Source of the DNA: Planctomycetota bacterium
Lineage (GTDB): Bacteria > Planctomycetota > Planctomycetia > Pirellulales > Pirellulaceae
Reading direction: 5' to 3'
Assembly (NCBI GenBank): GCA_026692885.1
Contig: JAPLNJ010000352.1
Span: forward strand, 14,174 to 78,173
DNA length: 64,000 nucleotides
Shown here: in pieces, positions 5,595 through 21,499 of the stretch
How the letters are laid out: each line of letters starts with the position of its first letter
How positions within the stretch are numbered: the first letter of the stretch is position 1
Translations under genes and position numbers: made by a program
The notes under the pieces: generated by a model
What the model saw: only the letters and a program-made list of their open reading frames with translations
Told to the model about the DNA's origin: nothing
The model's database searches: none

Positions 5595-5648
5595 GTCAGG
5601 CTTTTCAGCCTGACGCGAACCGAGCGTCAGCCTGGAACGGCTGACCTA
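5591..5648. repeat. Palindromic repeat providing stop codons to two convergent genes
   Basis: The palindrome runs from GTAGGTCAGG to its imperfect reverse complement GGCTGACCTAC. The TAG at 5592-5594 ends the zinc-ribbon gene and the CTA at 5646-5648 is the stop of the convergent gene. It could fold into a hairpin and act as a shared terminator, although no U-run is present. Confidence 0.7.
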
Positions 5649-6065: not shown

Positions 6066-6085
6066 GGCCCTCGTCCCTCCGCAGC

Positions 6086-6370
6086 TCAGCTTAGTCGCTG
6101 GACCGTGGTGAATTCGTCCAGTGTCAGCGACGTCAGTTCACCATCGTCCTTGCGCAAGTACCAGTGATCGAACCATTGCTTCTCGTCCCAGGAGCGGCGA
6201 TACCCGCTGTCGATGCCGCCTTCGCGCGGCTGTCGCCCGACGAGCGTACCGACCGTACGGCTCTCGGTGGCCCGCGAGCCGACCTGCATGCGGTGTACGA
6301 TCTCAACGCGCTGGCCTGGCTGTAATCCGACGCCCTGGCTGCGTTCTTGGGTTACGTTCATGCGTCCCAC
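6086..6370 (-). CDS. Conserved small hypothetical protein
   Basis: This 94-residue soluble protein has no recognised domain. It contains an N-terminal beta-rich part with GQRVEIVHRMQVGSR, and a C-terminal part with a WFDHWYLRKDDG segment. The start is either the GTG at 6370, with a GGAG just upstream, or the ATG at 6361. It is followed on the same strand by the small membrane protein at 5646-6065. The function is unknown. Confidence 0.55.
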   Translation of the reverse strand: MGRMNVTQERSQGVGLQPGQRVEIVHRMQVGSRATESRTVGTLVGRQPREGGIDSGYRRSWDEKQWFDHWYLRKDDGELTSLTLDEFTTVQRLS

Positions 6371-6531
6371 CTATCTCCAGCGAAACTACGGGTAAAGGCC
6401 CTTTAGCATTCTATCGAAACCAGACGTAAGGCAAGGGTAGTTCACGGAATTGTAATTGATGCGGGCCTGAATCCCCGCCCCTTCTCGTGTCGTCTTCTTC
6501 TCTTGTCGGGCAATTTCCGTAGAATAGCAGC

Positions 6532-7629
6532 ATGCAAACGTTCCTGTCTCCACAATGCGAGCATGGCCGTGAGACGGTCCGCAGCGGCCGAGTTGTGAAT
6601 TCTGCGCGGCAGACGTGGCTCGTGTCGCTGTTCGCCGTCACGTGTTGGCCGCTGGCATCCGCGGGGCTGTCGTCCCTGGGAGCGGACCAAGCGAAGCCGA
6701 CCCCGGCGGCGATTGACCTCCAGAAGATCTTTGCCGGCGGTGAGCCGTCGAGCCTCGCCGAACTGAAAGCGATGGAGCAACACCAACTCGCGTTGGCGCA
6801 GAAGGTGACGGAGTGCACGGTGGGCATCGTGGTCGGGCCGGCACACGGCAGCGGTGTGATCATTAGCCAGGACGGCTACGTCTTGACGGCCGCCCACGTC
6901 GCGGGCGAACCACGCCGTAAGGCGATCTTCGTCCTACCGGATGGCAGGCGGGTGCGGGGCGAAAGCTGTGGTCTGTACCGGACTTTGGACGCGGGACTGA
7001 TGAAGATTACCGAGACCGGACCCTGGCCGTTTGTGGAAATGGCGAACAGCGGTGATTTGCGGGTGGGGCAGTGGTGTGTGGCCACCGGCCACCCGGGCGG
7101 CTATGAAGTGGGTCGCAAGCCGGTGGTACGGATCGGCCGAATCCTGCAGATGGACAAGTCTGCCATCGCCACGGATTGCACCTTGGTGGGCGGTGATTCG
7201 GGTGGTCCGTTGCTCGACATGAACGGCCGCGTGATCGGCATCAACAGCCGTATCGGCCGGCAGTTGACGTCCAACATACACGTCCCGATTGCGGTTTTTC
7301 ATGAGACCTGGAACAGGCTGGTCAAAGGCGATGCCTGGGGCAACATTTTGGGGGCCGGGCCGGTATTGGGTGTAAAGGGGGATGCCCGTTCGGACGCCGC
7401 GAAAGTCACGAGCGTGGTCCCCGGGGGACCCGCCGAGAAAGCGGGCTTGCAGGCAGGTGATGTGATCGTCAAATTTGCCGGCCAGCCGGTCAAGGACTTC
7501 GCCGCTCTGCAATCCTTTGTCAACGACAGTCAACCTGGGGACAAGGTCGCCTTGGAGATCAACCGGGGAGGCAAGTCCAGCACAGTCGAACTGGTCCTCG
7601 GTCAACAACGCGAAGGGCCTGAAGATTGA
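6532..7629 (+). CDS. HtrA/DegP-like serine protease with C-terminal PDZ domain
   Basis: This 365-residue protein has a hydrophobic stretch at residues 27-48 consistent with an export signal or anchor. A trypsin-like domain follows with all three catalytic residues visible: His122 in LTAAHV, Asp153 in TLDAGLMKI and Ser223 in GGDSGGPLLD. A PDZ domain occupies about residues 275-360. HtrA-type proteases degrade or chaperone misfolded envelope proteins. The next gene is a degenerate paralogue that overlaps its stop codon. The first ATG has no obvious strong ribosome binding site, so the start could be further downstream. Confidence 0.88.
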   Translation: MQTFLSPQCEHGRETVRSGRVVNSARQTWLVSLFAVTCWPLASAGLSSLGADQAKPTPAAIDLQKIFAGGEPSSLAELKAMEQHQLALAQKVTECTVGIVVGPAHGSGVIISQDGYVLTAAHVAGEPRRKAIFVLPDGRRVRGESCGLYRTLDAGLMKITETGPWPFVEMANSGDLRVGQWCVATGHPGGYEVGRKPVVRIGRILQMDKSAIATDCTLVGGDSGGPLLDMNGRVIGINSRIGRQLTSNIHVPIAVFHETWNRLVKGDAWGNILGAGPVLGVKGDARSDAAKVTSVVPGGPAEKAGLQAGDVIVKFAGQPVKDFAALQSFVNDSQPGDKVALEINRGGKSSTVELVLGQQREGPED

Positions 7630-8732
7630 AGAAAGAGAAATCCGTGCAAGTACGCATTGCTCTCGAACAACTTCTTCCGCCGGGCGCCCGTGGCTGTCGT
7701 CCGGTATGTCGGTTGGCGTGTCAGTTGGGGTATCTGGTCCTGGCGTGGGTTGCCTTGGTGCTCGTGGTCGAAGCCGAGGAGAAGGCACGGGACACGTACA
7801 ACATCAAGAATGCTTTCCGGGCGGCGGTCAGCCGGCCGCTGCAGAGCACGGTGCGCGTCCTGTACAAACGGCCGACCGGTTCCGCCGAGGACTGGGAGAG
7901 CGCCGCCTTGGGCACCGTCGTGGATGCCGACGGCTACATCCTGACCAAGGCCAGTGAGCTGAAAGGTGACCGACTCTTGTGCAAATTGCACGACGGCACA
8001 AGATTGGACGCCAAACTTGTGGGCGTGCGTGAGGACTACGATCTGGCCATGTTGAAAGTCGAGGCCCACAATTTGCCCGTGATTGAGTGGAGCGAGGCCC
8101 CGTCACCGCCGGTCGGCAGTTGGTTGGCGACGCTCGGCATGGAGCAGATCCCCGTCGCCATCGGTGTGGTCAGTACGGCCCCGCGTGTCATCGAACGCAA
8201 CCTCCCGGCGTTGGGCATCATCTTGGACGAGAGCGACGAGGGTCCCAAGATTCACGCGGTCGTGCCGAACAGCGGGGCGGCTCAGGCCGGCTTTCAGGCG
8301 AAGGACGTGGTGACCCACTTGAACGGAAGTCAAGTCAAAGGGCGGGAAGAACTGATTCGCAAGATCCGCGACTTTCGCCCTGGAGAGAAGGTCAAATTGA
8401 CGATTCTGCGGGGAGCGAAGGAGCAGACGGTCGAGGTCGTCTTGGGTGAGCTGTCCCAGTTGACGCTTGGACACCGGGATCAGATTCAGAATACCATCGG
8501 CGGGCCGCTGAGTGAGCGGCGGGCGGGTTTCCCGATGGCGCTGCAGCACGACACGGTGCTCAAGCCGAACCAATGTGGCGGCCCGCTGATTGACTTGGAC
8601 GGCAAGGCGGTGGGCATCAATATCGCCCGCGCCAGCCGCGTCGGCACCTTGGCCCTCCCGACACCTGCTATCAGGCCCCTGCTCGACGAGCTCAAGTCAG
8701 GCAAGCTGGTGTCCACCACGCCCGCAGATTAG
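7626..8732 (+). CDS. HtrA-like pseudoprotease with PDZ inserted in the protease domain
   Basis: This 368-residue protein starts at a TTG that overlaps the stop of the preceding HtrA gene, with AAGGG upstream. After a hydrophobic segment (residues 32-50) it has a trypsin-like first barrel, but the catalytic His position of the LTAAHV motif reads LTKASEL (Ser110). The Asp is kept (Asp139 in DYDLAMLKV). A PDZ domain at about residues 195-275 interrupts the second barrel. The final strands follow it, with NQCGGPLIDL where active enzymes have GNSGGPL, so the nucleophile position is Cys317. It is probably inactive as a classical serine protease. A partner or regulator role for the adjacent active HtrA is inference. 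Confidence 0.8.
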   Translation: MKKEKSVQVRIALEQLLPPGARGCRPVCRLACQLGYLVLAWVALVLVVEAEEKARDTYNIKNAFRAAVSRPLQSTVRVLYKRPTGSAEDWESAALGTVVDADGYILTKASELKGDRLLCKLHDGTRLDAKLVGVREDYDLAMLKVEAHNLPVIEWSEAPSPPVGSWLATLGMEQIPVAIGVVSTAPRVIERNLPALGIILDESDEGPKIHAVVPNSGAAQAGFQAKDVVTHLNGSQVKGREELIRKIRDFRPGEKVKLTILRGAKEQTVEVVLGELSQLTLGHRDQIQNTIGGPLSERRAGFPMALQHDTVLKPNQCGGPLIDLDGKAVGINIARASRVGTLALPTPAIRPLLDELKSGKLVSTTPAD

Positions 8733-8770
8733 GGTCGCCGGATGGACAACTCCCTCGAGGCGAACTCAAC

Positions 8771-8849
8771 CGCGCACAGCAGCCTCAACGCAGCATAGAA
8801 ACGGGATCAAATCGATTGGCCTTGACAGGACCAAACTGAACACGCCAGG
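8771..8849 (+). repeat. Dispersed 79-bp repeat, copy 1
   Basis: This intergenic block downstream of the HtrA pair matches, in inverted orientation, the segment at 33258-33336 with only a few differences. It includes the shared core AGAAACGGGATCAAAT. Nothing else is seen in the 125 bp between the two convergent genes. Confidence 0.75.
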
Positions 8850-8857
8850 CCCTCCCC

Positions 8858-10762
8858 CTATTTGGCCTTCGCGTGCTGGCGGGGCACCAGCCCCGGCAAA
8901 ATCGCACTGGTGGGTCGCCGCGGCGTGTTGTCGTGGCACAGGATACGGGCGTCGCCCACCACGTAGGTGTGAAAGTCACTGACGACCAGGTTGTAGGTGG
9001 GCTGCGTGCTGCCTTCCTCCACGTCGCTGATGACCACCGACCCGCCGATACCGTGCAGGACCATGCCCGATTTCAGTTCCCGCAGCTTCACCCAGCCGTC
9101 GCCGGCCACCCACAACGGGTGCCCGCCACTGCCTTCCAGCCATTCCTCGATGCGAGTCGCCAGCCGGATTCTGATCAGCGGCTCCTCGGGCCGTTGGGTA
9201 GTTTGGAGCACCGGCTGGAAGGCCAGTTCGCCGGTGTCCAGAGCCTGGCTGAGCACCAGATCGCCGACACGAATCTTTTCGATCGCCACCGTTCCGCTGA
9301 CGGTCCAGACCGGGGTGCCGGCCACAAAGCATTCGTGGCGCCTGGGGGACGGCGTGGACCCGCCACCCGACGACGGGTAGTTGAGGGGCTGCGCATCCGA
9401 GTACAATCGCAATTCCTGCAGGTACCGCGTATCGGTGGCTTTCGAACCTGCCAGGGCCACTTCGTTTTCGCTGTCCCACCAAGACCACCAGGCCTCCGGC
9501 GACCGGGGCAGGTCCTTGCCGGTGGCCACACTCAAAGCTTGGCAAATCCGGTCGCTCACGGCTTCAATCACTTGGTTCTGCCGCAGGCGTTCCCACTCGC
9601 GGGCATAGGCTGTCGCCTGCGCGTCGGCGAACGCACGGGTCCGCGTTTCCGCCTGGGCCGAGGTGATCACCTGCTGGGCGACGGCGGGATCGACGAGCTG
9701 CTTGTTGCCCGTCGTTCGGACCAAGCTCGTTCGCCGATCCATCACGGTGTCCATGACGGTGGCGTCGCGGCGATCTTGCGTCTCCCGCATGAACTCGTGG
9801 CGGTAGACGATCCGGCCATTGACCAGCGCCGTCTGCGCCTGCGACTCGATCGGCGTGGACAACTCAGCCAACAGTAAGGGCAGGTAGTGATCGCGAGGCC
9901 GCGACTGGAGTTGCTCCGCCGCCTCGTCTCGCACCACGGGCGACGGCGACAGGACGGCGAGCCGGGCCAGTGCGGCGGCGGCCTCGTGCGACGGGAGGGT
10001 TCCCAGCAACTGGACGCCGAGCCGCGCCGCCGGCTCGTTGTCGTTGCCCAGTCGGATCTCCAATGCCGACACCGCGTCCGGCGTCAACTCGGATTTCAAC
10101 CGCTCGATTACCGCGGCGGTCTGTTGCGGGGCGTTTCGCCGCAGGCTGGCGCGGAGTTCATCCAGCTTCTTTTGCCACTTGGCAAGTGACGCCGCGGTCT
10201 GCTGGTTCTGTCGCAGGCCTTGCCACAGATCCTGACGGCGAACCCAATTGTTGCCGAGTCGCTCGAACTGCAGGCGTTGCCGCGCCACCGGATGATCCGG
10301 TGCCAGTTGCATCACGCGGTTCAAATGGGCCGATTCCTGGGCGGCGAGGTGATGCTTGGCGCACCAATTCGCCAGGGCCAGTTGACCGTCAGCCGTATCC
10401 GCGGCCGCCGCGCGCTGCTGCTCGTACGCTTCACGGAGCCGCTGCTGGTTCTCGGTTTCGCTGCGACTCGTCGCCGGCAGCCACTGATTCCCGACCCGGA
10501 TCTCGCCGTTGTGCCAGTGTGCAGCGGGCTGGTCCGGCGCCAGTTTCAGCGCTTGGCCAAGCAGCGTCTGCCGTTGCTGGTCCATGGCATACATCTCGTG
10601 GCCCAAGGCCTCACGCACCAGTTCCTCGGCGCCCCGGCGTTTGGCGGCCTGAGTCTCGGCCTGCACCGGTGCGCTGATCAGCCCACCGAGCAACGCCCCG
10701 ATCAACCCGCCGATCACACCCCTCCGAAACCGTCGTGCATGATGCGCAGACTGAACCGACAT
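8858..10762 (-). CDS. Exported protein with C-terminal HINT (pretoxin/intein-like) domain
   Basis: The start at 10762 is set by an AAGGAGT ribosome binding site just upstream; the upstream in-frame codons lack one. The 634-residue protein begins with a basic segment and a Gly/Leu-rich signal peptide ending near APVQAET. A long helical, TPR/HEAT-like region follows (residues 35-440). A HINT domain runs from about residue 478, with the nucleophile motif CFVAGTPVW, a GHPLWV motif and a terminal YVVGDARILCHDN-T. HINT domains in polymorphic toxins and hedgehog-type proteins self-cleave at such sites. Only 21 residues follow the Asn, so no toxin domain is present. The target of processing is unknown. 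Confidence 0.8.
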   Translation of the reverse strand: MSVQSAHHARRFRRGVIGGLIGALLGGLISAPVQAETQAAKRRGAEELVREALGHEMYAMDQQRQTLLGQALKLAPDQPAAHWHNGEIRVGNQWLPATSRSETENQQRLREAYEQQRAAAADTADGQLALANWCAKHHLAAQESAHLNRVMQLAPDHPVARQRLQFERLGNNWVRRQDLWQGLRQNQQTAASLAKWQKKLDELRASLRRNAPQQTAAVIERLKSELTPDAVSALEIRLGNDNEPAARLGVQLLGTLPSHEAAAALARLAVLSPSPVVRDEAAEQLQSRPRDHYLPLLLAELSTPIESQAQTALVNGRIVYRHEFMRETQDRRDATVMDTVMDRRTSLVRTTGNKQLVDPAVAQQVITSAQAETRTRAFADAQATAYAREWERLRQNQVIEAVSDRICQALSVATGKDLPRSPEAWWSWWDSENEVALAGSKATDTRYLQELRLYSDAQPLNYPSSGGGSTPSPRRHECFVAGTPVWTVSGTVAIEKIRVGDLVLSQALDTGELAFQPVLQTTQRPEEPLIRIRLATRIEEWLEGSGGHPLWVAGDGWVKLRELKSGMVLHGIGGSVVISDVEEGSTQPTYNLVVSDFHTYVVGDARILCHDNTPRRPTSAILPGLVPRQHAKAK

Positions 10763-10809
10763 GTGATACTCCTTCGCCAAGCGACAGCGGTACGTAGACA
10801 TCCACACGC

Positions 10810-10868
10810 TGGGAGCGCGAGGCGCCTGCCGAGCCGGTCGCGGCTAGGCAGGAGCCTCGCCCTCCCAA
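10810..10868. repeat. Palindromic repeat (GAGGC-TCCTGCC family), intergenic copy
   Basis: The arms TGGGAGcGCGAGGcgCCTGCC and its complement flank a short GC-rich loop. The same palindrome family is found in frame inside the SNF2 helicase gene at 25430-25494. A partial extra copy of the right arm follows at 10869-10881. Confidence 0.7.
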
Positions 10869-10898
10869 GCCTCGCCCTCCCAATATTCCTTTGGCAAC

Positions 10899-11175
10899 CT
10901 AGTGCGTCTTCAAGGCTAAGATCGTGGGTTGTAAGCGGAACGGCGCTAGTCGCCGGTGGCGTTCGGAACCGGCGTCTAGCGCCCAAGGCCACTTACTTTG
11001 TAGCGGCACGGCGCGAGCCGTCCGGTATTACAGTCGGAAAACCGGGCGGCTTGCGCCGCTCCGCTAACAAAAACGCTCCCAATGGTCCCAAAGTAAGTGG
11101 CATTAGGCTAGCGCCGTTCCGCTCACGCATCGTGACCCCAACTCTTAGGCTTGAAGACGCACGAGCACTCCCTAG
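10899..11175. repeat. CTAG-ended palindromic element, copy 1 (277 bp)
   Basis: The element begins CTAGTGCGTCTTCAAGGC and ends with the inverted form, GCTTGAAGACGCAC then a 10-base extension and CTAG. It contains inner GGGTTG/CCCCAAC arms and several nested palindromes. A second, shorter copy lies at 19261-19386 with the same terminal and subterminal pattern but a different core. No coding potential is evident. It fills the gap between the HINT gene and the accessory island. Confidence 0.7.
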
Positions 11176-11409
11176 ATCGGAAGCCGCACCGTGAATCACG
11201 TTATTAGAGCGAATCCGGCCAACCTGTGCAACGATTTCGCGCGTCCGGCCAACGAATGGAGCAAGCTCTCGGAGGCGATCCAGCCGTCCTGTCGAGCCCC
11301 TCGTGTCCGCGCTGCGACGGATAGGTTGCTGCGTGGCGCTCCCAGGCGTATATTTGGAACAGGTCGCCCGATGGTTCATGATGCTGCTTGTCCAGGGGAA
11401 CTCGCTCCG

Positions 11410-11604
11410 ATGAAACTCGGCCTCATCAACTCAGCCTGGGTGCAAACGGGCCAGCCCACAAGCTACGGGCTGCGCAAGACCAAGGAGATCGGCTTCGACA
11501 CAATCGATCTGTTCGTCGACGCGCTGGACATCGACGTGCGCGAGCGGCGTTTGATCAAAGATGAATGCGACCGGCTTGAGCTGCCGATCGTCTCGTTGAC
11601 TTCG
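11410..11604 (+). pseudogene. Truncated sugar phosphate isomerase/epimerase-like TIM-barrel gene (N-terminal fragment)
   Basis: From the ATG at 11410 (GGGGA upstream) about 65 codons resemble the N-terminus of xylose-isomerase-like TIM-barrel proteins: MKLGLINSAW, then a helix with KTKEIGFDTIDLFVD and a strand LPIVSLTS. The frame then runs into unrelated sequence and stops at 11664. Full members have about 260-300 residues, so three quarters of the gene is missing. The break coincides with the start of a Vsr-like fragment in another frame, which suggests that an insertion or deletion joined the two remnants. Confidence 0.6.
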
Positions 11605-11612
11605 TCAGACCG

Positions 11613-11795
11613 TCGCAGCACTGCCACCCACCTTCCGCGTGGTCGAGAGAGCCGAAGCTGGTGAGCAACAAGGAGCGAGACCGGATGCACATCGGAGCGC
11701 TGCGCAGGCAAGGCTGGCACGTGTTGGTCGTTTGGGAGTGCTGGACGCGGAATTCGCACACACTGGAACGGCGGCTGCGGCGGTTCCTGGAGTGA
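11613..11795 (+). pseudogene. vsr: Very short patch repair (Vsr) endonuclease, C-terminal remnant
   Basis: In the frame ending with TGA at 11793-11795, the translation reads QHCHPPS, then NKERDR, then LRRQGWHVLVVWEC and a final helix ERRLRRFLE. This is the C-terminal half of Vsr nucleases, which have N-x-x-RD followed by GW-x-VL-x-VWEC. The N-terminal half with the catalytic Asp region is missing, so it is most likely inactive. Vsr genes normally accompany C5-cytosine methyltransferases and repair T:G mismatches left by 5-methylcytosine deamination. A C5 methyltransferase gene lies at 14966-16060, which supports the identification. Confidence 0.7.
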
Positions 11796-11812
11796 ATCGC
11801 GCGGCCCGTCGA

Positions 11813-12994
11813 TCAGCTGGGCTGCCAGCAGTTGGCACGGCCCCATTCGACAAGGAAACTGCGGTCGAACCGAGCCAGACTCATGAGGTCGGCGTTCTCA
11901 GCAATCATCTGCTCCCGCAGTCCCACGTTGGAAAAGAGCAACTGGTCGACGTCCACCAGCTTCGTGAACCGGTCGAGGAACCGGACGGCCAAGTCATCTT
12001 CCTGCGGGGCCAGACGGATGGCCGCTGTCTTTCGCTGCGGCACCAAGCCCAGCGGGTCGGTGATCTGAACGGGCAGGCTCTCGAATCGAAACGCCAGCGA
12101 CAGCATGTCTGGCGCTTGGCTGCTGTCGACGACCCGATAACACGCATTGATCTCCAACTTCAGCTTCCAGGCCTGCAGAGAAAGCTTGAGCAGCCATTTC
12201 GCGAAGCCGATTCCGAAGGCACGCACGAATTGGTCGTCAAGCAGCGTGATTTCCGTGCGCACTTCGGCCTCGATGGCGGCCGGCTCAAACAAGGTTGACT
12301 GACTGGCCTTGTTCCGGAAGGCTTCGTTCCGTTCCAGATTGTCGCGCAGCACCTCGAACAGCTTGATCATCACGCTACGTTTCACCGCGCTGCGGTCCGC
12401 CCGCGTGGTGACAAACAGCAGCCACGGCTCTTTGCGGCTTTCCGCCTGGAGTTCGACAAGCGTCTTGATCGCCTCCAGTGCGGTGTCGCTCGCGCCGGCC
12501 TCGCGACTGGCCACAGAATCACAAAGGTCCAGGTTCGCAGCGTCGAAGCCGTTGAACCTGGCCGCGTGCTCGTAGCCCAGCGACTTCCGATTCGAGAGCA
12601 TTTCCAAGCGGTCCGCTAGGAGGACCGAGTCCTTGTGAATCCATGGCAACCGCCAGACCTCGTCCATCGAAATGTCGAGTTCCGGATCGTTCTTGCGGGT
12701 GCTGTCAAAGCCAAGGAAACGGAGCTGCACTTGTCTCTGCGCACAAATGTCGTGCAAGTGCCGCACGTCGAGAAGGTATCGGCCTGGCAGCGTGAGATAC
12801 CTGAAAGGGCGGCCGTCAAACACGAGTTCACCGAGCAGGCGGCCGACGAGCCTTCCCCACTGTTCCTTGCGAATCCAGTGTTTCCGGGGTTTATGCCAGG
12901 GTTCAGGAGTACGCTTCGCGACCCTGCCTGCTGGGACCGCGGCGTCGAGGAAGTCTCGCGGGAAGAGTTCCTCGGCGTTGTCGTGAGAGGTCAT
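11813..12994 (-). CDS. Uncharacterised 393-aa protein coupled to GHKL ATPase (possible Rossmann-like fold)
   Basis: The ATG overlaps the stop of the upstream ATPase gene as ATGA, so translation is coupled. The family is not recognised with confidence. The pattern LPGRYLLDVRHLHD, then LRFLGFDS, then AANLDLCDS, then WLLFVTTRAD looks like the consecutive strands of a Rossmann-like, methyltransferase-type fold in residues 65-200, without a clear Gly-rich SAM loop. The C-terminal half is mixed helix and strand. It ends 17 bp from the convergent Vsr remnant. Membership of a modification/defence cassette is inferred from coupling and neighbours. Confidence 0.7.
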   Translation of the reverse strand: MTSHDNAEELFPRDFLDAAVPAGRVAKRTPEPWHKPRKHWIRKEQWGRLVGRLLGELVFDGRPFRYLTLPGRYLLDVRHLHDICAQRQVQLRFLGFDSTRKNDPELDISMDEVWRLPWIHKDSVLLADRLEMLSNRKSLGYEHAARFNGFDAANLDLCDSVASREAGASDTALEAIKTLVELQAESRKEPWLLFVTTRADRSAVKRSVMIKLFEVLRDNLERNEAFRNKASQSTLFEPAAIEAEVRTEITLLDDQFVRAFGIGFAKWLLKLSLQAWKLKLEINACYRVVDSSQAPDMLSLAFRFESLPVQITDPLGLVPQRKTAAIRLAPQEDDLAVRFLDRFTKLVDVDQLLFSNVGLREQMIAENADLMSLARFDRSFLVEWGRANCWQPS

Positions 12995-14954
12995 TGCCCG
13001 CCTCCTGTCAGGAAGACTCGGGCGATGGCACGCAGCAGTTCTTCCTGCTGCTGATAGGTGAGCTGCTTCAGCAGACCATAACCGTCGAGAATCTGCGCAA
13101 CTGCCTTCAGCTGCTCTTCGAAATGGGTTCGTTTGCGTTCCTGGTCCGCGCCACGCCGTTCGGGCTCGGGGTAGTCATCCAGGACTCGTTTCGGGAAGAC
13201 GATCGCTCCTTCCTTACGGGCCTGTTTGGCGACCGGCGATCGTTCGTCGTCGACGAAGAGCACTTCGGGCGGTTCATCTTCGGCGTCCGGCGCTTTGCCG
13301 AGCGTTTCATCTACCACCTGCTGCAAAGCCTCGCGCACTTGACCGGCGTGCTGGTCACGGGCATCCGCCCGGAGTTCCGCGCCGATCGCCTTGTGCTTCG
13401 TCGCCAATTGCCGCAAGGCGCGATGGACCCACTTCGTCAAGAACTGGAAGTGCGGGTGCGAGTAGTTGAAGGACTCCCGGTCGATGTTCAGCGCCGCGTC
13501 GAGCCCTTCCGACACGTAAACCTCGGCCGTGATCTGTCGCAGCCGGGTTTGCTCCGAGACTTCGTAGTGTAGAAATGTGTCGTCGAACAGCGTGCCCGAC
13601 GCGTCGCCGATGCGGAGCATCAGGCCGTTGTTTTCTTTCGGCACGACCGTCGGTGTCCAGAAGAAATAGCCTTCGAAGGCCAGCTCACGGCCGCCCGTCG
13701 CGTCAGCGGGAAAATGCTTCAGGTCGGGACGGCACTGGCCCACAAATAGCAGGGGCTGTCGCAGTTTGGCGGAACTCTTGGCCGGGAGGTCTCGGAAACG
13801 GATGGGCCTCAGAAGCTGGACCCCATCCACGAAAACCTGGAACGGCGCGGTGGTGCCGACCTTGGAGAATCCGGCCGCCTGCCGTACCGTTTGGCCAGCC
13901 TTCAGATTCAATTCCTTCGCTGGCTCGCGATCACGGTTCGACAGGATGAATACGCGGACTTCGTCCTTGGCCGTCAGCTCGAAGGGATGCCGTTCGATGT
14001 ACTCGACGGGGGTGGCGAGCGCGAGCGTCCACAGCGTGGCCAGATAGTTGTCCAAGCTGGCTTCCAGCGTCGGAACACTGGTCCTGATTTCGACCTGGTC
14101 CACAATCGCCTGAAAGAGCTTACGGAACTTGTCGGGCGGATCGTCGCTAGGGGTCCAAGGCAACCGCGCCGTGTCTTGACGGACGTCATGCGAGCTGGGA
14201 TCAACACTTCCGATGTGATAGACGGGCGGCGGCCGGACCAATTCATCGAGCAGCGAGTCAGCTTCCTGGTGCCGCGTCCACCGCTCGCGGCTTTGCAGAA
14301 GCGAACGCGTGTAGTCCTTCAGGTTGAGGAGCACGACTTGGGTCCCGTGCGCGCTTTTGTCGGCGGCGGGCTCGCGCCACAGTTCGACATCCCCGCTTTC
14401 GAACTCCGGCTCTTGACCGGGCTTGATCTTGGCGAGCCGCTCCTCATCGTGCAGATTCAGGCGAATCTCCGCGACGTACCGAAACGCTTCGTTTCGTGGT
14501 TTGGTAATGATACGGAAGTGCCGCGTTAGCTGCGCCACTGCGAACAGGCCAATCCCGATCTTGCCGATCAGCCGCCTGCCGCCCTTGCTGAACCGGAAAT
14601 CCTTCTGCGTGATTCCCAGCTCGACGCCGTAGCCCGTTCGCTTGGCGCTGCCGCCGATGTTGTGGACCAGATACTCCAACACATCGAGCGCCATCCCCTC
14701 GCCATCGTCGGCCACAATGACTTCCGAGAACCGAGGCGCGCATCCGTGGTGATCCAGACGCTCGTGGCATCGGCGTCATAGGCATTGAAGATCAGCTCGC
14801 GCAGAGCCGATGCCGGCTGCCGGTAGATGCCGTCGGTAATCCGGGCCAGAACCCGTTCGTTCGTGCGTAGCTTGGTTCTGGCGTGATGGCCAGCCAGAAC
14901 TTCCTTGCGAAGGTCGTCAGCTTCTGATTGGCGGGAACCCATGCTGCACCTCAC
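12991..14954 (-). pseudogene. GHKL (MORC/MutL-like) ATPase interrupted by a frameshift
   Basis: Two frames together encode one GHKL ATPase of about 650 residues. The first frame (from GTG 14954 or ATG 14942) carries the N box, ALRELIFNAYDADAT, at residues 50-64. The frame breaks in a GCGCGC run at about 14735-14741. The second frame continues with VADDGEGM (DxGxGM motif), GGSAKRTGYG (ATP lid) and GKIGIGLFAV (glycine box), then an S5-like region and a long charged C-terminal part. Reading GATGCGCCT instead of GATGCGCGCCT would restore the frame. It lies between a C5 methyltransferase and a coupled 393-aa gene, as in restriction-modification systems with MORC-type ATPases. A sequencing or assembly error is possible. 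Confidence 0.75.
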
Positions 14955-14965
14955 CGGGCCGACGG

Positions 14966-16060
14966 TTACTGCCGCGTGTAGAGCTGCTTCCGGATCGCTG
15001 TCGCGACAGCTCGAGCCACGGGCGGCGGAACGGCATTCGACACTTGCTGCACCTGCTCGCTGAAGTTTCCCTGAAGCACAAACTTCTTAGGAAATCCCTG
15101 TAACAGCATCGCTTCCAGAATAGAAAGTCGCCGCTTGCCGTCCGGGTGAATGTGGATCTCGCGATTCCCGTAGGCCACGGTCCAGCTAGGCTGGTCCCAT
15201 TCGAGCCGGCGAAAAGAGCGGCTACCATTGAAATCGTTGTCCGCAAATCGTCGGGAGCGCGGCGGCATGGTCCAGTGGTTGGCGTGATAGGGGATGTCGT
15301 CTGCGGTCAGCCCAGGCGTTCTCAGGATCGGTTCGGGCAGTCCGCTGATCGCCTGACGAACCGTGCGGAGGTCCTCGGTGCCGTTCGGCCACTCGAAAGA
15401 ATCGCCTCGGAACGTGTCGCGGTTGATCCCGACGAGAAACAGACGCCGGCGCCGCTGCGGTACACGGAACCGCTCGGCATCCAGTTCGGCTTGAGCGACG
15501 TTGAATCCCGCCTCACTAAATCGCCGGATGATATCCCGCAGCCTGTCGCGATGCTTTGGCGACCTCAGCCCCAGCACGTTCTCGAACACGAAGAAGTCGA
15601 TCGACCATCGTCGGTTGAGCGCCGCCAGGAGCTCACAGTAGCGGAACGGAAGCTCGTTCCTGGGATCATCCGGGCTGGCCTTCGTGTTGCCGTAGGAGAA
15701 GCCTTGGCACGGCGGGCCGCCAATGACACCTCTTGGCGGTGACAGCCGACTCAGCCATCTCGTGACTGCGGCCGGGGACAGTCCGGCGAGGTCACCGGCA
15801 CGGGCGACGTTGCCCGCGAAGTTCGCGTTGAAGGTACGCGTCGCGGCCACATCCCAATCGATAGCGAGCACGGGCAAGAAACCCGCCTTGACAAATCCAT
15901 AATCCAGGCCACCAGCACCACTGAACAGGCTGAGAACCGGGATTGCGGTTGTTGGTTCGGCAAGCATGTCCGTTGGCAGTTCCCCGCCTGTCCGGTTCCC
16001 CGGCGACTCGAAGACGCAATGGGTCTCAACGTACCGGAAGGAGTATAGGGTTCGCGACAT
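14966..16060 (-). CDS. DNA (cytosine-5) methyltransferase
   Basis: This 364-residue protein has all main C5 methyltransferase motifs: LSLFSGAGGLDYG (motif I, residues 43-55), PPCQG with catalytic Cys118 (motif IV), ENV at 160-162 (motif VI), QRRRR at 202-206 (motif VIII) and SNAVPPPVA near the C-terminus (motifs IX-X). It transfers a methyl group from S-adenosylmethionine to cytosine C5 in a specific sequence. The target cannot be read from the sequence. The start could also be the internal ATG at 15967, just before the conserved core. It is the first gene of a minus-strand operon with the GHKL ATPase and the 393-aa protein, and a Vsr remnant lies at the far end. Confidence 0.92.
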   Translation of the reverse strand: MSRTLYSFRYVETHCVFESPGNRTGGELPTDMLAEPTTAIPVLSLFSGAGGLDYGFVKAGFLPVLAIDWDVAATRTFNANFAGNVARAGDLAGLSPAAVTRWLSRLSPPRGVIGGPPCQGFSYGNTKASPDDPRNELPFRYCELLAALNRRWSIDFFVFENVLGLRSPKHRDRLRDIIRRFSEAGFNVAQAELDAERFRVPQRRRRLFLVGINRDTFRGDSFEWPNGTEDLRTVRQAISGLPEPILRTPGLTADDIPYHANHWTMPPRSRRFADNDFNGSRSFRRLEWDQPSWTVAYGNREIHIHPDGKRRLSILEAMLLQGFPKKFVLQGNFSEQVQQVSNAVPPPVARAVATAIRKQLYTRQ

Positions 16061-16405
16061 TCCATGTATAGTGGCCTGGGCTGGCAGACCTGGGCTGGCA
16101 GAGGGCTGCCACGTTGTGGCGGAAGGCCCCCGATCCCCGGAGCAAATCGCTGCTCACACTCGCGAGGAGGAGCAAGAACGCGAGACACGATCGCTTGCGG
16201 TGGAGTCCGGGAAGTTATTTCGACACGCGTTGCCAGCGCTCGCCGGAAGCTTTCCTGATACCCAATCACAGCCGATCAGCAACGGCCGGATTGTCTAACA
16301 CGGGCGATGTTCTATGATGGACTGCAACGCAGAGCGGCGGATCTACTCGCCTGCGCCTGACGAACAACCTTCGGTTCCTGTGGGTGTTGGCCTGGGAGGG
16401 CGGAC
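16061..16405. other. Intergenic region between methyltransferase and nifU
   Basis: These 345 bp separate two divergent genes. A short direct repeat of the GGGCTGGCAGA type lies at 16078-16103. I see no convincing coding sequence and no remainder of the TIM-barrel gene broken at 11604. Promoters for both genes should lie here, but I cannot place them with confidence. Confidence 0.4.
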
Positions 16406-17368
16406 ATGGCTTGGGAGTACAGCGAAAAAACGAAACAGATCTTCCTGGATGCCGTGCACGGCAAACCGGGCACGCACCTGGGGGAAATGGAGCACCCGGA
16501 CGGCTTCGGCGAACACGGGTCGATCGCTTGCGGCGATGCCATGCGGTTCACCTTCCGCGTCGAACGGCATCCCACAGACGCCACCCAGGACGTGATCGTG
16601 GCGGCGCGGTACTTGACCTTCGGATGTACCTCGGCCATCGCCGCCTCGGAAGCACTTTGCACCCTCATTGAACAAGGCCGATACACCCCCATCGGTTCCC
16701 TGCAGATCCGCAACACGGACATCGTGGACTTTCTCGGCGGTCTGCCGGCGCAGAAGATCCACTGTTCGGTCATGGGGGCCGAAGCGCTGGAAGCGGCCGT
16801 GTTCAACTGGGCGCAGAAGCGGGGCGTGGATCTGGCCCGTCTGGGCATCGACCTGCATGCCACCGAACAGGAAGACGGTCGGATCGTGTGCCGATGTTTC
16901 TCGCTGACCGAACCCTACCTGCGGCGCAAGATTCGGGAACTCAACCTGCGCACCATCCCGGAGATCACCAACGCTATCAAAGCCGGTGGAGCGTGCATGT
17001 CCTGCCACCAAGTGCCTGGCGGACTCCAAGACCTGCTCGATGAAACCTGGGGCAAGTCGCCAGGCAGTTCTCTGGTTCTGACCCAGATCAACTTGCCGGG
17101 TGCGACCGCGGTCCAGGCGGAAACGTCGGCGTTATCGCCTTACCAGTTCAGTAAGAAGGTCGAACAGACGCTGGACAGCCAGGTCCGACCGTTGCTCCGG
17201 CGAGACGGCGGCAACGTGGAGATCGTCGACATCAAGGAGACTCTGGTCTACTGCCGCCTCGTGGGGTCCTGCCAAGGCTGTGCCGGCGCCAACCAGACCC
17301 TGCGCTGGCTGGTCGAACAGCAGCTCAAGGAGCTTGTCGACGAACGCATTCGGGTAATCGAAGTCTGA
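16406..17368 (+). CDS. nifU: NifU-type Fe-S cluster scaffold protein
   Basis: This 320-residue protein has the three-part NifU layout. The N-terminal IscU-like domain (1-130) has scaffold cysteines in ACGD, FGCTSAIAAS and KIHCSVMG. The central BFD-like [2Fe-2S] domain (about 165-215) has CRCFS and CMSC. The C-terminal Nfu domain (240-320) has GSCQGC. It assembles Fe-S clusters with sulfur from the cysteine desulfurase encoded 17 bp downstream. The start is supported by GGGAGGG upstream. No nitrogenase genes are visible here, so a general Fe-S role, or supply to a particular client, is more likely than nitrogen fixation. Confidence 0.93.
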   Translation: MAWEYSEKTKQIFLDAVHGKPGTHLGEMEHPDGFGEHGSIACGDAMRFTFRVERHPTDATQDVIVAARYLTFGCTSAIAASEALCTLIEQGRYTPIGSLQIRNTDIVDFLGGLPAQKIHCSVMGAEALEAAVFNWAQKRGVDLARLGIDLHATEQEDGRIVCRCFSLTEPYLRRKIRELNLRTIPEITNAIKAGGACMSCHQVPGGLQDLLDETWGKSPGSSLVLTQINLPGATAVQAETSALSPYQFSKKVEQTLDSQVRPLLRRDGGNVEIVDIKETLVYCRLVGSCQGCAGANQTLRWLVEQQLKELVDERIRVIEV

Positions 17369-17385
17369 ACAGAAAGCAGCTGACG

Positions 17386-18663
17386 ATGCACGTCATCTAC
17401 GCCGATAATAATGCCACGACTCAGGTCGCGCCCGAAGTCTGCGAGGCGATGGCGCCGTTCTTCACCGCCGACTACTTCAATCCCAGTTCGATGTACGAAC
17501 CGGCCCGGCGCACGGCCGCGGCGATCGGACAGGCCCGCCAACAGGTCGCGAGACATTTGGGTGTTACCGATCCGAAGCAGATCCTGTTCACTTCGTGCGC
17601 CACGGAGAGCAACAACACGGCCCTCTTCGGGACGGCCAAGGCCAACCCCCACCGCCGCCAGATCATCACCACGACGGTCGAGCACCCGGCGGTGCTGGAA
17701 GTCTGCAAGGATTTGGGACGTAGCGGCTACGAGGTGATCTTCCTGGAAGTCGATGGTCACGGAAATCTGGATCTGGACGAGTTCGTGCGGGTCCTGCGGC
17801 CGGAGACCCTCTTGGTCAGCATCATGCACGCGAATAATGAGACGGGCGTGATCTTTCCTATCCCCCAGCTCTCCCGGATCACGAAGGAAACCGATCCGTC
17901 GATTGTCTTCCACACGGACGCCACCCAGTCGGTAGGCAAACTCCCGCTGGATCTGGAGCAAGCCTATCGGCACGTGGATCTGCTCTCGTTCTCCGGCCAC
18001 AAGCTGCACGCGCCCAAGGGCATCGGCGGCCTGTACATCAAGCGGGGTACGCCGTGTCGACCGCTGCTGATCGGCGGGCACCAGGAGGAGGGCCGCCGGG
18101 CAGGGACCGAAAACACGCCGTACATTGTTGGGCTTGCCCGGGCTATGGAACTGGCCGCCGGATGTTTCGAAGAAGAACAGACGAAAATCCGTCGCTGGCG
18201 AGACCGGCTGGAAACCGCCCTCGAAACACTGATTCCCCACGTCCAGGTCAATGGCCGCGGGGCACCCCGGTTGCCCAATACCCTGAACGTGTCCTGCCAT
18301 TACGTAGAGGGGGAAGCACTGCTCTATCAGTTGAGCGACTGCGGGATCTGTGCCTCCAGCGGTTCCGCCTGCACGTCCGGGTCCCTGGAGCCCTCTCACG
18401 TGTTGCGCGCCATGCAAGTCCCGTTCACGGCGGTTCACGGCTCCGTGCGGTTCAGCCTCAGCCGTTACAATACGGAGTCGGATGTAGACCGGATCATCGA
18501 AGTCTTTCCCCAGATCGTGGCCAACTTGCGCAGGCTTTCCCCGTATTGGGACCAAACACTCAATCGGCCGCGCGGCGACGCGGCCGAGCTCACGCACGGT
18601 CCGCTCACGACGCGGTCGCCACCTGGACTTGAGCTCCCTCCAGACGCTCCGACAAGAGCTTGA
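17386..18663 (+). CDS. nifS: Cysteine desulfurase NifS
   Basis: This is a PLP-dependent class V aminotransferase-fold enzyme that removes sulfur from cysteine for Fe-S assembly. It shows YADNNATT at the N-terminus, the PLP lysine in SFSGHKLHAPKG and the active-site cysteine loop in SSGSACTSG. The N-terminal 385 residues match NifS/IscS length. The last 30-40 residues are Pro/Arg-rich and run past the family end, overlapping by 59 bp the convergent gene at 18605-19051. It follows nifU in the same operon. Confidence 0.93.
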   Translation: MHVIYADNNATTQVAPEVCEAMAPFFTADYFNPSSMYEPARRTAAAIGQARQQVARHLGVTDPKQILFTSCATESNNTALFGTAKANPHRRQIITTTVEHPAVLEVCKDLGRSGYEVIFLEVDGHGNLDLDEFVRVLRPETLLVSIMHANNETGVIFPIPQLSRITKETDPSIVFHTDATQSVGKLPLDLEQAYRHVDLLSFSGHKLHAPKGIGGLYIKRGTPCRPLLIGGHQEEGRRAGTENTPYIVGLARAMELAAGCFEEEQTKIRRWRDRLETALETLIPHVQVNGRGAPRLPNTLNVSCHYVEGEALLYQLSDCGICASSGSACTSGSLEPSHVLRAMQVPFTAVHGSVRFSLSRYNTESDVDRIIEVFPQIVANLRRLSPYWDQTLNRPRGDAAELTHGPLTTRSPPGLELPPDAPTRA

Positions 18664-19051
18664 TCACCTGCCCCATAATCCGGTAGCCGAGGAGCGTATC
18701 GCGTTCGCACAACTCGCGGAGCCGTTTGGCGTCCACTTTGATCAGACGCGTGGCTGTGCGGGCTGTCGCGATGCACGTGATCCGGTAGGGCTCGACCATG
18801 GCTGGCCAGCCGAGGATGTCCCCCGGCTCAAGCGTGTCGACGATGCGCCGCTCGCCATTCACCAGGGTGTATTGGATGTCCACTTTCCCGTCCACGATGA
18901 TGCTCAGGAGGTCGGCAGGTTCTCCCTCGGTGTGGATTTGGATACCTGCCGGAACCGCCCCTTCCTCGGCGATCAAGGCCACGGCCTTCAGGGTCTCCTC
19001 CGCGATGGTTGCGAAGCAGGGATACCGACGTAACAGTTCTGGCGAGATCAT
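18605..19051 (-). CDS. Cyclic nucleotide-binding domain protein
   Basis: The start at 19051 is fixed by a GGAGG nine bases upstream; the longer frame to 19099 lacks such a site. The 148-residue protein is a single cyclic nucleotide-binding (CRP/PKA-type) domain: a short helix, then strands with GIQIHTEGEPADLLSIIVDG, the GDILGWPAM phosphate-binding-cassette region and a C-terminal helix. There is no DNA-binding helix-turn-helix, so it is not a transcription factor of the CRP type. The conserved Arg of the cassette is not obvious, so ligand binding is uncertain. Its 3' end overlaps the tail of nifS. Confidence 0.8.
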   Translation of the reverse strand: MISPELLRRYPCFATIAEETLKAVALIAEEGAVPAGIQIHTEGEPADLLSIIVDGKVDIQYTLVNGERRIVDTLEPGDILGWPAMVEPYRITCIATARTATRLIKVDAKRLRELCERDTLLGYRIMGQVIKLLSERLEGAQVQVATAS

Positions 19052-19260
19052 GACTGTTCCTCCGCAGACTTGCTTATTGAATCTTTTCCCGCCCATCATG
19101 CTACCGAAGCGGATGGGGTCGCACCAGAGTGGCAGTGTCGGAAATCATCAGACACCAGGCGTGGGCTTGGATGGGTTGGTCTAACCTGGCCAGCCCATTT
19201 TTCTTGTCGCGGTCGGACGGCGGCCACCGGGTCCGTAGGCACCGCGCAAGGCATTTGGCC

Positions 19261-19386
19261 CTAGTGCCTTCAAGGCTAGAAAGTGGGGTAAGCATCCTGC
19301 TTGCCTTTCGATTCGTCGTGTCAAACGCAAGCTGGAAGCTTGCGCCACCGCATCGGTCACCCCAAGATTAGGCCTTGACGCCCTAG
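19261..19386. repeat. CTAG-ended palindromic element, copy 2 (126 bp)
   Basis: It begins CTAGTGCCTTCAAGGCTAG and ends with the inverted ATTAGGCCTTGACGCCCTAG, with inner GTGGGGT/ACCCC arms. It is the short relative of the element at 10899-11175. The core holds a GCAAGCTGGAAGCTTGCG hairpin. The rest of the region 19052-19579 has no gene. At 19460-19505 there is a small TCGCTCCGCGAGATGA hairpin. Confidence 0.7.
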
Positions 19387-19579
19387 TGCGATCGTCCGGA
19401 CTCTTGCTATCCTGGACGCTTAGGATCGCGAAAGAAATAACTGTCGCAAGAATGTGGTCATCTCGCTCCGCGAGATGACATGCCATCACGCGGAGCGTGA
19501 TGGCTACTTTGAAGACCCGACACTAATTCATTTCGCGGTCCTTAGGCCAATCGTTGGCACACATCCTTGGAGACATCGT

Positions 19580-21481
19580 ATGAAGCGACTTGTGGCATTT
19601 CTGTGGCTGGTGGTCGGTGGGATTCTGGTGCAGACCGGGGCCTTGGCCCAGACGCGAGACCGCGCCAGCGTCCCGGAGAAGGACCTCTGGAAGCTCGAAG
19701 ACATCTACGCCTCCGACGCGGCCTGGGTGGCAGCCAAAGAGAAACTTACCGGCCAGTTCGATCGCGTGCTGGCCTTCCAGGGCCAGCTGGCAAGCTCGCC
19801 CCGTCAACTCCTGGCCTGCCTGCAACTCGACAGTGAGATCAGTCGGGAACTCGAGCGTCTGTCCTCCTACGCCTCGATGAAGTCCGATCAGGACACGCGG
19901 GTCGCGAACTACCAGGGCCTGAAAGAAGAACTCCAGAAACTGGCCACCGACTACCGGTCGAAGGCCTCGTTCATCGCCCCGGAGGTCGTCGCCCTGGACC
20001 AAGCCACGATTGAGGCCTGGCTCGCGCAAGAGGCGGGCCTGCGCATCTACAAGATGTATCTGAACGATCTGCAGCGCACCAAGTCGCACCGCCTGTCGAC
20101 CAAGGAAGAGAAGCTACTGGCCGAGGCCGGCCTGATGGCGTCCGCGCCCCTCTCGGCCTACAAGATCCTGAGCAACGCGGAACTACCGTTTCCGCCCATC
20201 ACGCTCTCCGACGGGACGCAGGCCACCCTGAACCAAGCCGGCTACGCCAAGTACCGCGTGGTGCGCAACGCGGCCGATCGCGAGGCCGTGTTCCAGACGT
20301 TCTTCGGGACGATGGACAAGTTCCAGCAGACCTTCGGCAGCCTACTTTCCTCGCAAGTCAAAGAGCATACGTTCTACTCGCGAGCGCGGAATTATGACTC
20401 CTCCCTGCACCGGGCGCTGGACAGCAACAACATTCCCGTCGGGGTCTACCACGCGCTGATCCAGGGCGTCCACAAGCACCTGGGCTCCTTCCATCGCTAT
20501 CTGCGTTTGAAGCAACGGATGCTGAGCGTCGCGCAGCTCAAGTACTCCGACCTGTACGCGCCGGTGGTGAAGGAGGTGGATCTGGAATACTCGTATGCAG
20601 CGGCCGAACGACTGGTTTTGGACGCCCTCCAACCGCTGGGCGAGGATTACACCCGCATCGTCAAACGGGCCTTCGACGAGCGTTGGATCGACGTATTTCC
20701 CACCCCGGCCAAGCGGTCCGGTGCCTACTGTCATGGCTGCTACGACGTCCATCCCTACGTGCTGCTGAACTACAACGGCCAGTACCACGACGTCAGCACG
20801 CTGGCCCACGAACTGGGCCATGCCATGCACAGCTACTATTCCAACAAGACCCAACCGTATGCCACGGCGGACTACGCCACGTTTGTCGCCGAGGTGGCTT
20901 CGACGCTGAACGAAGCCTTGCTGATGGACAAGCTGCTCCGGAGCGAGGGCGATGACAATGTGAAACTCTCGCTGCTGATGAATTACTTGGACGGCGTCAA
21001 GGGCACCGTGTTCCGCCAGACGCAGTTCGCCGAATTCGAACTGGCCATTCACGAGAAGGCCGCACAAGGCGAACCGCTGACCGGTGAGGCGCTGACCCGA
21101 CTGTACGGCGAAATCCTCAAGCAGTACTACGGCCACGACCAAGGCATCTGTCAAGTCGACCCGCGGTATTTCGTCGAATGGACGGCCGTACCACACTTCT
21201 ACTTAGATTTCTACGTCTACCAATACTCCACCTCCTTCACGGCTTCGACGACCCTGTCGGAGAAGATCTTGAAGGGCGAGTCAGGAGCGGTCCAGCGAAC
21301 CCTGGATTTTCTCTCGGCCGGAGGATCCGATTATCCGGTCGCCATCTTGAAGAAAGCCGGTGTGGACATGTTGACGAGCGACCCGCTGGACAACACCATG
21401 ACGATGATGAACCGCGTGATGGATCAGATCGAGGCGATCTTGGCGAAGAAAGCGGACCACGGGGCCGCTAAGATCAAGTAA
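19580..21481 (+). CDS. pepF: Exported oligoendopeptidase F (M3 family metallopeptidase)
   Basis: The start is placed at the ATG at 19580, which gives a signal peptide (MKRLVAFLWLVVGG...TGALAQ) and has GGAG upstream; 42 in-frame upstream codons have no family features. The mature protein matches PepF: an N-terminal helical domain and the zinc motif HELGH at residues 410-414 (in TLAHELGHAMHSYY), with a downstream Glu helix in FVAEVASTLNEAL. It cleaves oligopeptides. The export signal is unusual relative to cytoplasmic PepF enzymes of Firmicutes. It is followed 19 bp later by a Tat-exported protein. Confidence 0.92.
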   Translation: MKRLVAFLWLVVGGILVQTGALAQTRDRASVPEKDLWKLEDIYASDAAWVAAKEKLTGQFDRVLAFQGQLASSPRQLLACLQLDSEISRELERLSSYASMKSDQDTRVANYQGLKEELQKLATDYRSKASFIAPEVVALDQATIEAWLAQEAGLRIYKMYLNDLQRTKSHRLSTKEEKLLAEAGLMASAPLSAYKILSNAELPFPPITLSDGTQATLNQAGYAKYRVVRNAADREAVFQTFFGTMDKFQQTFGSLLSSQVKEHTFYSRARNYDSSLHRALDSNNIPVGVYHALIQGVHKHLGSFHRYLRLKQRMLSVAQLKYSDLYAPVVKEVDLEYSYAAAERLVLDALQPLGEDYTRIVKRAFDERWIDVFPTPAKRSGAYCHGCYDVHPYVLLNYNGQYHDVSTLAHELGHAMHSYYSNKTQPYATADYATFVAEVASTLNEALLMDKLLRSEGDDNVKLSLLMNYLDGVKGTVFRQTQFAEFELAIHEKAAQGEPLTGEALTRLYGEILKQYYGHDQGICQVDPRYFVEWTAVPHFYLDFYVYQYSTSFTASTTLSEKILKGESGAVQRTLDFLSAGGSDYPVAILKKAGVDMLTSDPLDNTMTMMNRVMDQIEAILAKKADHGAAKIK

Positions 21482-21499
21482 CTTTGCGGAGGTAGAACC

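Follow-up and report, generated by a model that had tools for sequence, protein, structure and literature searches.

The cassette described here lies in a 64,000-nucleotide stretch (hereafter the window) of contig JAPLNJ010000352.1, from a Planctomycetota bacterium of the family Pirellulaceae (assembly GCA_026692885.1). It comprises, on the minus strand, the genes of a C5 DNA methyltransferase, a GHKL ATPase and a 393-amino-acid (aa) protein of the PP_RS20740 family, on which a remnant of a vsr gene converges from the other side. We consider it moderately likely that these genes represent a damaged member of a three-gene, prophage-mobile defence module resembling restriction-modification (R-M) systems. 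The features that carry the argument are the following (positions are those of the window; ORF, open reading frame):

14966 to 16060, minus strand: C5 methyltransferase ORF, intact (PF00145, 171.6 bits, cut-off 22)
14568 to 14954, minus strand: N-terminal piece of the GHKL ATPase, with the N-box NAYDADA (homologous part about 14739-14942)
14725 to 14750, minus strand: stretch in which the GHKL reading frame changes, from alignment to intact relatives
12991 to 14715, minus strand: remainder of the GHKL ATPase in another frame, open upstream to about 14775
12991 to 12994, minus strand: ATGA stop/start overlap of the GHKL and 393 genes (a 4-base overlap is present in 30 of 57 relatives)
11813 to 12994, minus strand: intact ORF of the 393-aa protein, partner of the GHKL ATPase (PP_RS20740 family; NF047698, 340.5 bits)
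11649 to 11795, plus strand: Vsr remnant (last third), convergent on the cassette (TIGR00632 and PADLOC Vsr; profile match about 11649-11789)

The methyltransferase, recognized at these positions in a preliminary description of the region, is confirmed by its PF00145 match and by the catalytic motifs GPPCQ, ENV and QRRRR (the PC, ENV and QxR motifs of C5 DNA methyltransferases). The gene itself is probably shorter than the ORF (14966-15967, starting at Met-32), because the product predicted in the protein database (P0241, 333 aa) begins at this residue and most of the closest homologs are 332-346 aa long. The enzyme belongs to the canonical subtype of the cassette (n = 36). Palindrome counts in the window favour no particular recognition site for it; neither GCCGGC (79 seen vs 89 expected) nor GTCGAC (32 vs 43) is strongly depleted. 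GCCGGC is the sequence cut by NaeI and NgoMIV. Over the whole window GCGC is strongly rarer than expected (409 seen vs 604 expected, maximal-order Markov model), and its shortfall exceeds that of every other 4-base palindrome.

The 393-aa ORF and its ATGA overlap with the GHKL gene were likewise described correctly. The protein is a member of NF047698 (match over residues 23-384, curated cut-off 200 bits), a family that has a name only; in the available text of one report its type gene is called hypothetical, and a V338F point mutation in it is tied to furfural tolerance (PMC9630843). PF28273 is listed for the protein in the protein database (precomputed), and the Pfam copy used in our analysis gave no match. 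Across 52 aligned members of the family, the invariant positions are W, H, R, K, R, P, D, N, D, Q and Y. They include the residues of WHxPRKxxxR, D76 and NxD(156). By eye, several strand-like blocks (RYLTLPG.., LRFLGFD, FDaINLDLCDS and PWLLFxTTR) resemble a class I methyltransferase in their order and spacing, which would make the protein a second modification enzyme with a degenerate Rossmann methyltransferase-like fold, and not a sensor or nuclease. We regard such an identity as improbable: a GxG column at 80% is lacking from the family alignment, and in hhalign the family profile had less than 0.4% probability against Response_reg_2, TcmP, C5 methyltransferases (0.1-0.2% for these three), Vsr and GHKL proteins (a positive control within the family reached 100%).

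Linkage and carriage of the trio

A scan for the 393 family, with one genome per species, yielded 58 loci in ten phyla (Planctomycetota, Pseudomonadota, Actinomycetota, Acidobacteriota, Elusimicrobiota, Nitrospirota, Nitrospinota, Bacteroidota, Verrucomicrobiota and Thermodesulfobacteriota). The GHKL gene adjoins the 393 gene in 57 of them (in L052, where it does not, 393 is truncated) and the two are codirectional in all 57, a linkage that is far above chance. A C5 methyltransferase was found in 45 loci (25 upstream and codirectional, 15 convergent, 5 in other arrangements), and Vsr in 18, all of which have a C5 methyltransferase (18/45 vs 0/13, Fisher p 0.005, for loci that are not independent). 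Both counts are lower bounds, since several loci (L002, L023, L035, L040 and L056) are short, contig-cut or begin near the pair. The preliminary description had staked its proposal on the three genes being conserved together elsewhere and on the 393-aa protein not belonging to an unrelated housekeeping family; the former is what these loci show, and no tie of the protein to a housekeeping family was seen.

Pairwise distances over 35 loci are closely correlated between the 393 and GHKL proteins (r 0.88) and less so between these and the methyltransferase (r 0.50), and the joint change of the former two is as expected for a physical complex. Among the Pseudomonadota, the 393 (E<=1e-3), GHKL (E<=1e-20) and canonical methyltransferase (E<=1e-60) families each occur in 2 of 298-299 genomes, the same two for all three, and in both the genes are adjacent.

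In the tree of the 393 family (55 of the 59 rows were long enough to be included), 33 of the 55 rows form one supported clade (97/92), which includes the window and L001. A canonical methyltransferase accompanies 32 of these 33 and four more rows outside the clade, and the methyltransferase labels are clustered on the tree (8 changes vs a shuffle mean of 17.7). Caulobacter sp. (L016) and Sulfitobacter (L031) are examples of hosts in which a canonical trio is intact. Within 35 canonical enzymes the target-recognition region is more alike than the catalytic part (46% vs 38% mean pairwise identity), the corresponding values for ten other methyltransferases being 28% and 38%. The simplest inference from the canonical values is that these enzymes would share one fixed recognition site across phyla.

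Named restriction nuclease families (type II or IV) were found at 8 of the 58 loci, none with the canonical enzyme, in a set of loci that was scanned in part. A gene of the NgoMIV type lies between the methyltransferase and GHKL genes in L006, and MvaI/BcnI beside 393 in L058; HNH adjoins the pair in L029 and L036, AspBHI_N together with Mrr in L049, while L039, L019 and L032 have a gene of the NaeI type at some distance from the pair (about 2.4 kb in L039, about 5-6 kb in the other two). L019 also encodes an SNF2 helicase with NOV_C, clustered homologs of which are present in L032, L043 and L044. From the flanks of the C5-methyltransferase loci and L002, 161 ORFs were listed, and 91 ORFs from 43 loci (90 of them from the list) were scanned; from 11 of the 13 loci without a C5 methyltransferase, 47 of 86 ORFs were scanned. 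Within this partial coverage (families listed: 25 of 89 and 25 of 52) no recurrent nuclease was seen in the canonical group, in which a rare nuclease is possible.

The trio is also carried by viruses. In IMG/VR, 13 of the 15 loci found with 393 as seed have methyltransferase, GHKL and 393 (GHKL being split in L104), and in the other two the contig starts at the 393 gene; all 16 loci seeded with GHKL, on virus-classified contigs, have both partners. With the methyltransferase as seed, the pair was found beside 17 of 23 high-scoring matches vs 0 of 56 others (among the best 80 of 566 stretches). These three scans share contigs and are not independent. In L098 and L103 a phage integrase ORF directly precedes the trio, and the corresponding ORF of L100, L104 and L107 is 90-93% identical to the one in L098; the trio is hence located behind an integrase gene in five related proviruses.

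The methyltransferases of these five proviruses are 92-94% identical to that of L098, and their 393 proteins 63-83%. Such a disparity, together with the existence of canonical methyltransferases that lack the pair, would suit a scenario in which selection acts on the methyltransferase, as a solitary epigenetic marker, and the pair is its passenger. We find this quite unlikely. Nonsynonymous divergence (dN) is low and synonymous divergence (dS) saturated in nearly all comparisons of GHKL and 393 between the proviruses, which argues for purifying selection on both. The likeness of the methyltransferases is accompanied by a lower dS (0.5-1.0), so this segment seems to have been exchanged recently between phages. 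Furthermore, the pair occurs with no visible C5 methyltransferase in 13 of the 58 bacterial loci (some on cut contigs).

Carriage of the 393 family is visible only in the IMG/VR contigs. P0122, the intact closest relative of the GHKL protein, matches one plasmid entry in part (over 24% of the P0122 length; the entry is annotated as a sensor histidine kinase), and the window methyltransferase matches 14 plasmid records, each at <35% identity. No near match of a provirus trio was found in E. coli genomes.

The divided ATPase gene and the left edge

The GHKL ATPase had been described as a single ORF (12991-14954), which did not survive closer comparison with its relatives: the gene occupies two frames that change near 14740. 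The change is placed there because the N-terminal piece (in a frame of 128 aa) corresponds to residues 1-68 of P0122 at 90% identity and the remainder to residues 68-649 at 86%, P0122, at 85% the closest relative, being one uninterrupted protein of 649 aa. The long frame holds the G1 box DDGEGM, GKIGIGLF, the S5-like element LNIDRESFN..HxH and the C-terminal part. The frame change falls between the N-box and the G1 box and divides the two halves of one ATP site; with the N-box and the G1/G2 boxes in different frames, a complete ATPase could not arise by ordinary translation of the window copy as sequenced. Most GHKL relatives are single ORFs of about 630-700 aa, and the exceptions (e.g., L002, L023, L056) are cut or broken. 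The solved chains that score best against the GHKL family profile are MutL and Mlh1, followed by MORC3 and endoplasmin. LNIDRES is invariant in the family alignment, and we take it to resemble the arginine segment of the Hsp90 middle domain.

Either a recent lesion or faulty sequencing could account for the frame change. Were it an error of sequencing or assembly, the window copy would be a working three-gene system minus its Vsr helper, and we hold this to be possible, if on the less probable side. Consistent with it, there is one frame change, both pieces are open and close to P0122, the 393 and methyltransferase ORFs are intact, and the protein database entry rests on a single 78-kb contig. 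Two observations point the other way, namely that Vsr and the neighbouring host gene are truncated (so real damage did occur at the locus), and that split genes are present in other loci as well (two ORFs for GHKL in L104, at 2246-4230; three for GHKL and two for 393 in L002; two for 393 in L040).

The convergent Vsr stump is real, as previously described, and what is left of it is the last third. Of the 140 positions of the Vsr profile it covers 87-133 (E 2.6e-14 for a search confined to a small region), and it scores 29 bits against TIGR00632, vs a cut-off of 97.85; the earlier portion is absent from all frames of 11000-11900. MTES_1575 and HTH_23 were rejected as identities of the stump, their scores being below the cut-offs. 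The segment to its left, which had been included in the candidate cassette, derives from a different gene:

11410 to 11601, plus strand: 5' end (first 64 codons) of a truncated host TIM-barrel gene (PF01261-like, xylose-isomerase-like; weak)

Relatives of this gene are found in 132 of 188 genomes of the class to which the Planctomycetaceae genome G001 belongs (up to 81% identity), mostly as open frames of 275-350 aa, and in nearly all of them the homology stops at residue 63-64. No 3' part of the gene was found in the window, and a gap of about 50 bases separates its end from the Vsr stump. Because the TIM-barrel homology ends at this point and Vsr is reduced to the profile segment given above, the host gene and vsr have each lost a large part, and we interpret 11410-11601 as the left scar of the cassette.

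Kinship with known systems and proposed mode of action

The occurrence of GHKL ATPases together with C5 methylases and Vsr was already known (PMC2292703, PMC8011034); its description in R-M neighbourhoods by Iyer, Abhiman and Aravind in 2008 was rightly cited in the preliminary description, and in the accessible text the same authors propose that such ATPases loop DNA between recognition and cleavage sites (PMC2292703). The paraMORC R-M systems of that paper resemble the cassette in having an S5-type GHKL protein beside a C5 methylase, sometimes with Vsr, and in their patchy, laterally mobile occurrence. They differ in the superfamily II helicase (in about 70% of MORC neighbourhoods), which is absent among the cassette genes of the window, and in the dedicated PP_RS20740 partner, for which the accessible text names no counterpart (PMC2292703). 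Within this framework the label 'MORC-like', applied earlier to the window protein, is too specific: the MORC motif GhXhhpXXRhl was encountered in 1 of 24 sequences, at residue 85 and outside the S5 region, and an assignment to MORC proper was rejected. Considering that this motif is absent and that HxH, which for paraMORC5 is given as conserved in the C-terminal part, is invariant (24 of 24 sequences), the GHKL protein may correspond to paraMORC5 of Iyer et al., which would also agree with its patchy distribution (2 of 298 genomes). For paraMORC2, an ExxxH column at 90% is lacking in the S5 domain.

A second comparison concerns BbrUII/HgiDII (NF050001), in which a GHKL-type protein of about 650 aa likewise stands beside a C5 methyltransferase. 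The GHKL pieces of the window score 16.7 and 18 bits against this model (cut-off 550 bits) and fall outside the family. A distant protein of this type (261.8 bits, below the cut-off) is encoded beside a C5 methyltransferase in L234, and resembles the window GHKL family mainly in the ATPase region (profile 44-212, E 9.7e-15; in L235 also 492-573); neither L234 nor L235 has a 393 match. In L234 (genome G569) a GHKL ORF of 673 aa is followed by a C5 methyltransferase ORF of 392 aa, an arrangement that provides a precedent. The BbrUII/HgiDII model shows that a GHKL-type protein has already been annotated as a restriction enzyme. M.HgiDII is reported to methylate GTCGAC (PMC5867850).

The HEF_HK / Response_reg_2 systems (Bellieny-Rabelo et al. 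2021, PMC8011034) share with the cassette a GHKL protein with an adjacent partner and a C5 methylase, often also Vsr. According to the portion of the paper available, two HATPase domains are present in the majority of their GHKL proteins, unlike the window family; moreover, PF19191 and PF19192 matched none of the cassette proteins, and the partners are unrelated by profile (hhalign probability of the 393 family against eight Response_reg_2 proteins, 0.1%). In VcSduA, the GHKL-type Shedu of Vibrio cholerae and a second precedent, a role of a GHKL ATPase in phage defence is shown experimentally, the GHKL and nuclease domains both being needed (PMC12137116). It is a single protein with a fused DUF4263 nuclease, and the accessible text mentions neither a methyltransferase nor a 393 partner. 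With regard to Druantia type II, the best PADLOC match of the window methyltransferase is DruM2 (266.6 bits), and PADLOC has no family that matches the 393-aa protein or either GHKL piece. Literature searches (titles and abstract starts) returned no paper on the trio, and the constant 393 partner, prophage carriage and conserved recognition region were not found in the available parts of the literature on such systems.

We reason that in intact members the C5 methyltransferase would label self DNA at one constant target site, while the GHKL protein would act as an ATP-driven dimeric clamp of the MutL/MORC/Hsp90 type. Together with its PP_RS20740-family partner it would constitute the restriction arm, which loads on incoming unmarked DNA and disables it, with the partner contributing the sensing of the target, the chemical step or both. 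Elsewhere in the family the pair lies near ordinary type II or type IV nucleases. Among the cassette genes no known endonuclease family scores over its cut-off, and no known nuclease signature was found in GHKL or 393, either of which could be the endonuclease. The alternatives offered in the preliminary description (the 393-aa protein as effector, or decay to a solitary methyltransferase) each have their place: family-wide, the candidate restriction arm is the GHKL-393 pair, and for the window copy decay fits better, because its GHKL gene is split between frames. With its ATP site divided and Vsr a stump, the window copy would have its restriction arm off, except if faulty sequencing produced the frame change. 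Only the methyltransferase and possibly a free 393-aa protein would remain, and the copy has probably decayed toward a solitary methyltransferase.

Vsr most likely serves to repair deaminated 5-methylcytosine, since it was found only in loci with a C5 methyltransferase and also occurs without the pair; three virus-classified loci (L161, L164 and L165) have a canonical methyltransferase with Vsr and no GHKL-393, and this two-gene pair can therefore live alone. On the same grounds Vsr was judged unlikely as the effector, and its earlier placing among the nucleases of such systems is less well supported as regards attack. A damaging role is possible in the light of a Vsr-like protein of Caulobacter, reported to damage DNA in cells without the cytosine methylase (PMC12907096). 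Fusions to HhH-GPD glycosylase domains (PF00730) occur among close relatives of the methyltransferase (P0280, P0287, P0294, P0296 and others); the fused glycosylase could answer the same repair need as Vsr, or could be a restriction glycosylase.

These repair functions might be extended to the pair itself, as a MutL-like ATPase and partner that aid Vsr or the glycosylase on G:T mismatches arising from the system's own 5-methylcytosine. The best scores of the GHKL profile (MutL and Mlh1), the confinement of Vsr to C5-methyltransferase loci and the HhH-GPD fusions would all agree with this. It nonetheless appears rather unlikely to us, as Vsr was not found in 27 of the 45 C5-methyltransferase loci and is present in only 1 of the 15 virus-classified 393 loci; it accompanies the canonical methyltransferase without the pair in the three loci just named, and the pair is found near restriction nucleases in loci without Vsr (L019, L029, L032, L036, L039, L049, L058).

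Several observations weigh against a restriction-modification-like defence module. The trio is not always complete, given the 13 loci with no C5 methyltransferase (several on short or cut contigs) and the 6 of 23 high-scoring viral methyltransferases (best 80 of 566 stretches) beside which the pair is absent; three of the 23 (L178, L183 and L197) have 31-33% identity and are probably not canonical. The co-occurrence in Pseudomonadota is consistent but weak, because one of the two genomes was the seed. Neither of two 393 proteins used as queries matched any of 72,556 plasmid and 50,697 phage records, an unusual outcome for R-M systems. The aligned 393 family lacks a (D/E)xK column at 80%, and its profile had one chance-level match (E 0.39) and no other among solved structures. 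Finally, no phage-resistance or cleavage experiment on the trio was found in the literature.

Restriction without cutting is a further, quite speculative option, to which we assign a low probability: the ATP clamp, with the 393-aa protein as reader of the mark, would entrap and compact unmarked incoming DNA. The idea draws on eukaryotic MORC-1, which is reported to entrap and condense DNA (PMC8277788). If true, it would amount to a bacterial methylation-gated silencing similar to that by eukaryotic MORC proteins, which nucleases would have joined in side branches only.

The module with a GHKL-393 restriction arm also offers a functional hypothesis for PP_RS20740, a family that is named and uncharacterised. 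The link between GHKL proteins and R-M systems, drawn from gene neighbourhood, dates from 2008. The trio could serve as a small, testable model for MutL/MORC-type ATPases in bacterial immunity, because it is compact, is situated behind an integrase in five proviruses, and has apparently one target specificity and one constant partner. The window copy is of limited value for this purpose, because its ATPase gene is split.

Surroundings of the cassette

On the right-hand side a possible promoter overlaps the start of the methyltransferase ORF; in the region, 2 promoter-like sites were seen vs 0.9 expected.

16042 to 16070, minus strand: promoter-like site 5' of the methyltransferase gene (9 of 12 matches; weak evidence)

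Beyond it lie NifU/NifS-like genes (16406-18663), which have counterparts at 65-70% identity in two genomes from the class of G001. The other 20 window ORFs compared had no match in the 19.5 kb around the NifU/NifS-like genes of those two genomes, and an empty site of the cassette was not found in them. No tRNA was detected in positions 5000-25000 of the window, and no Rfam match in 8000-20000.

To the left of the host-gene scar, nested imperfect inverted repeats extend over 10809-11345, centred near 11045, and their outer palindrome (about 59 bases) recurs at 25429-25494 with 82-83% identity; judged by this likeness, the two would represent a small family of REP/MITE-like repeats. Adjacent to the repeats, an ORF of 649 aa (8858-10807, minus strand) has a C-terminal part that looks, by eye only, Hint/intein-like (CFVAGTPVWTVSG...).

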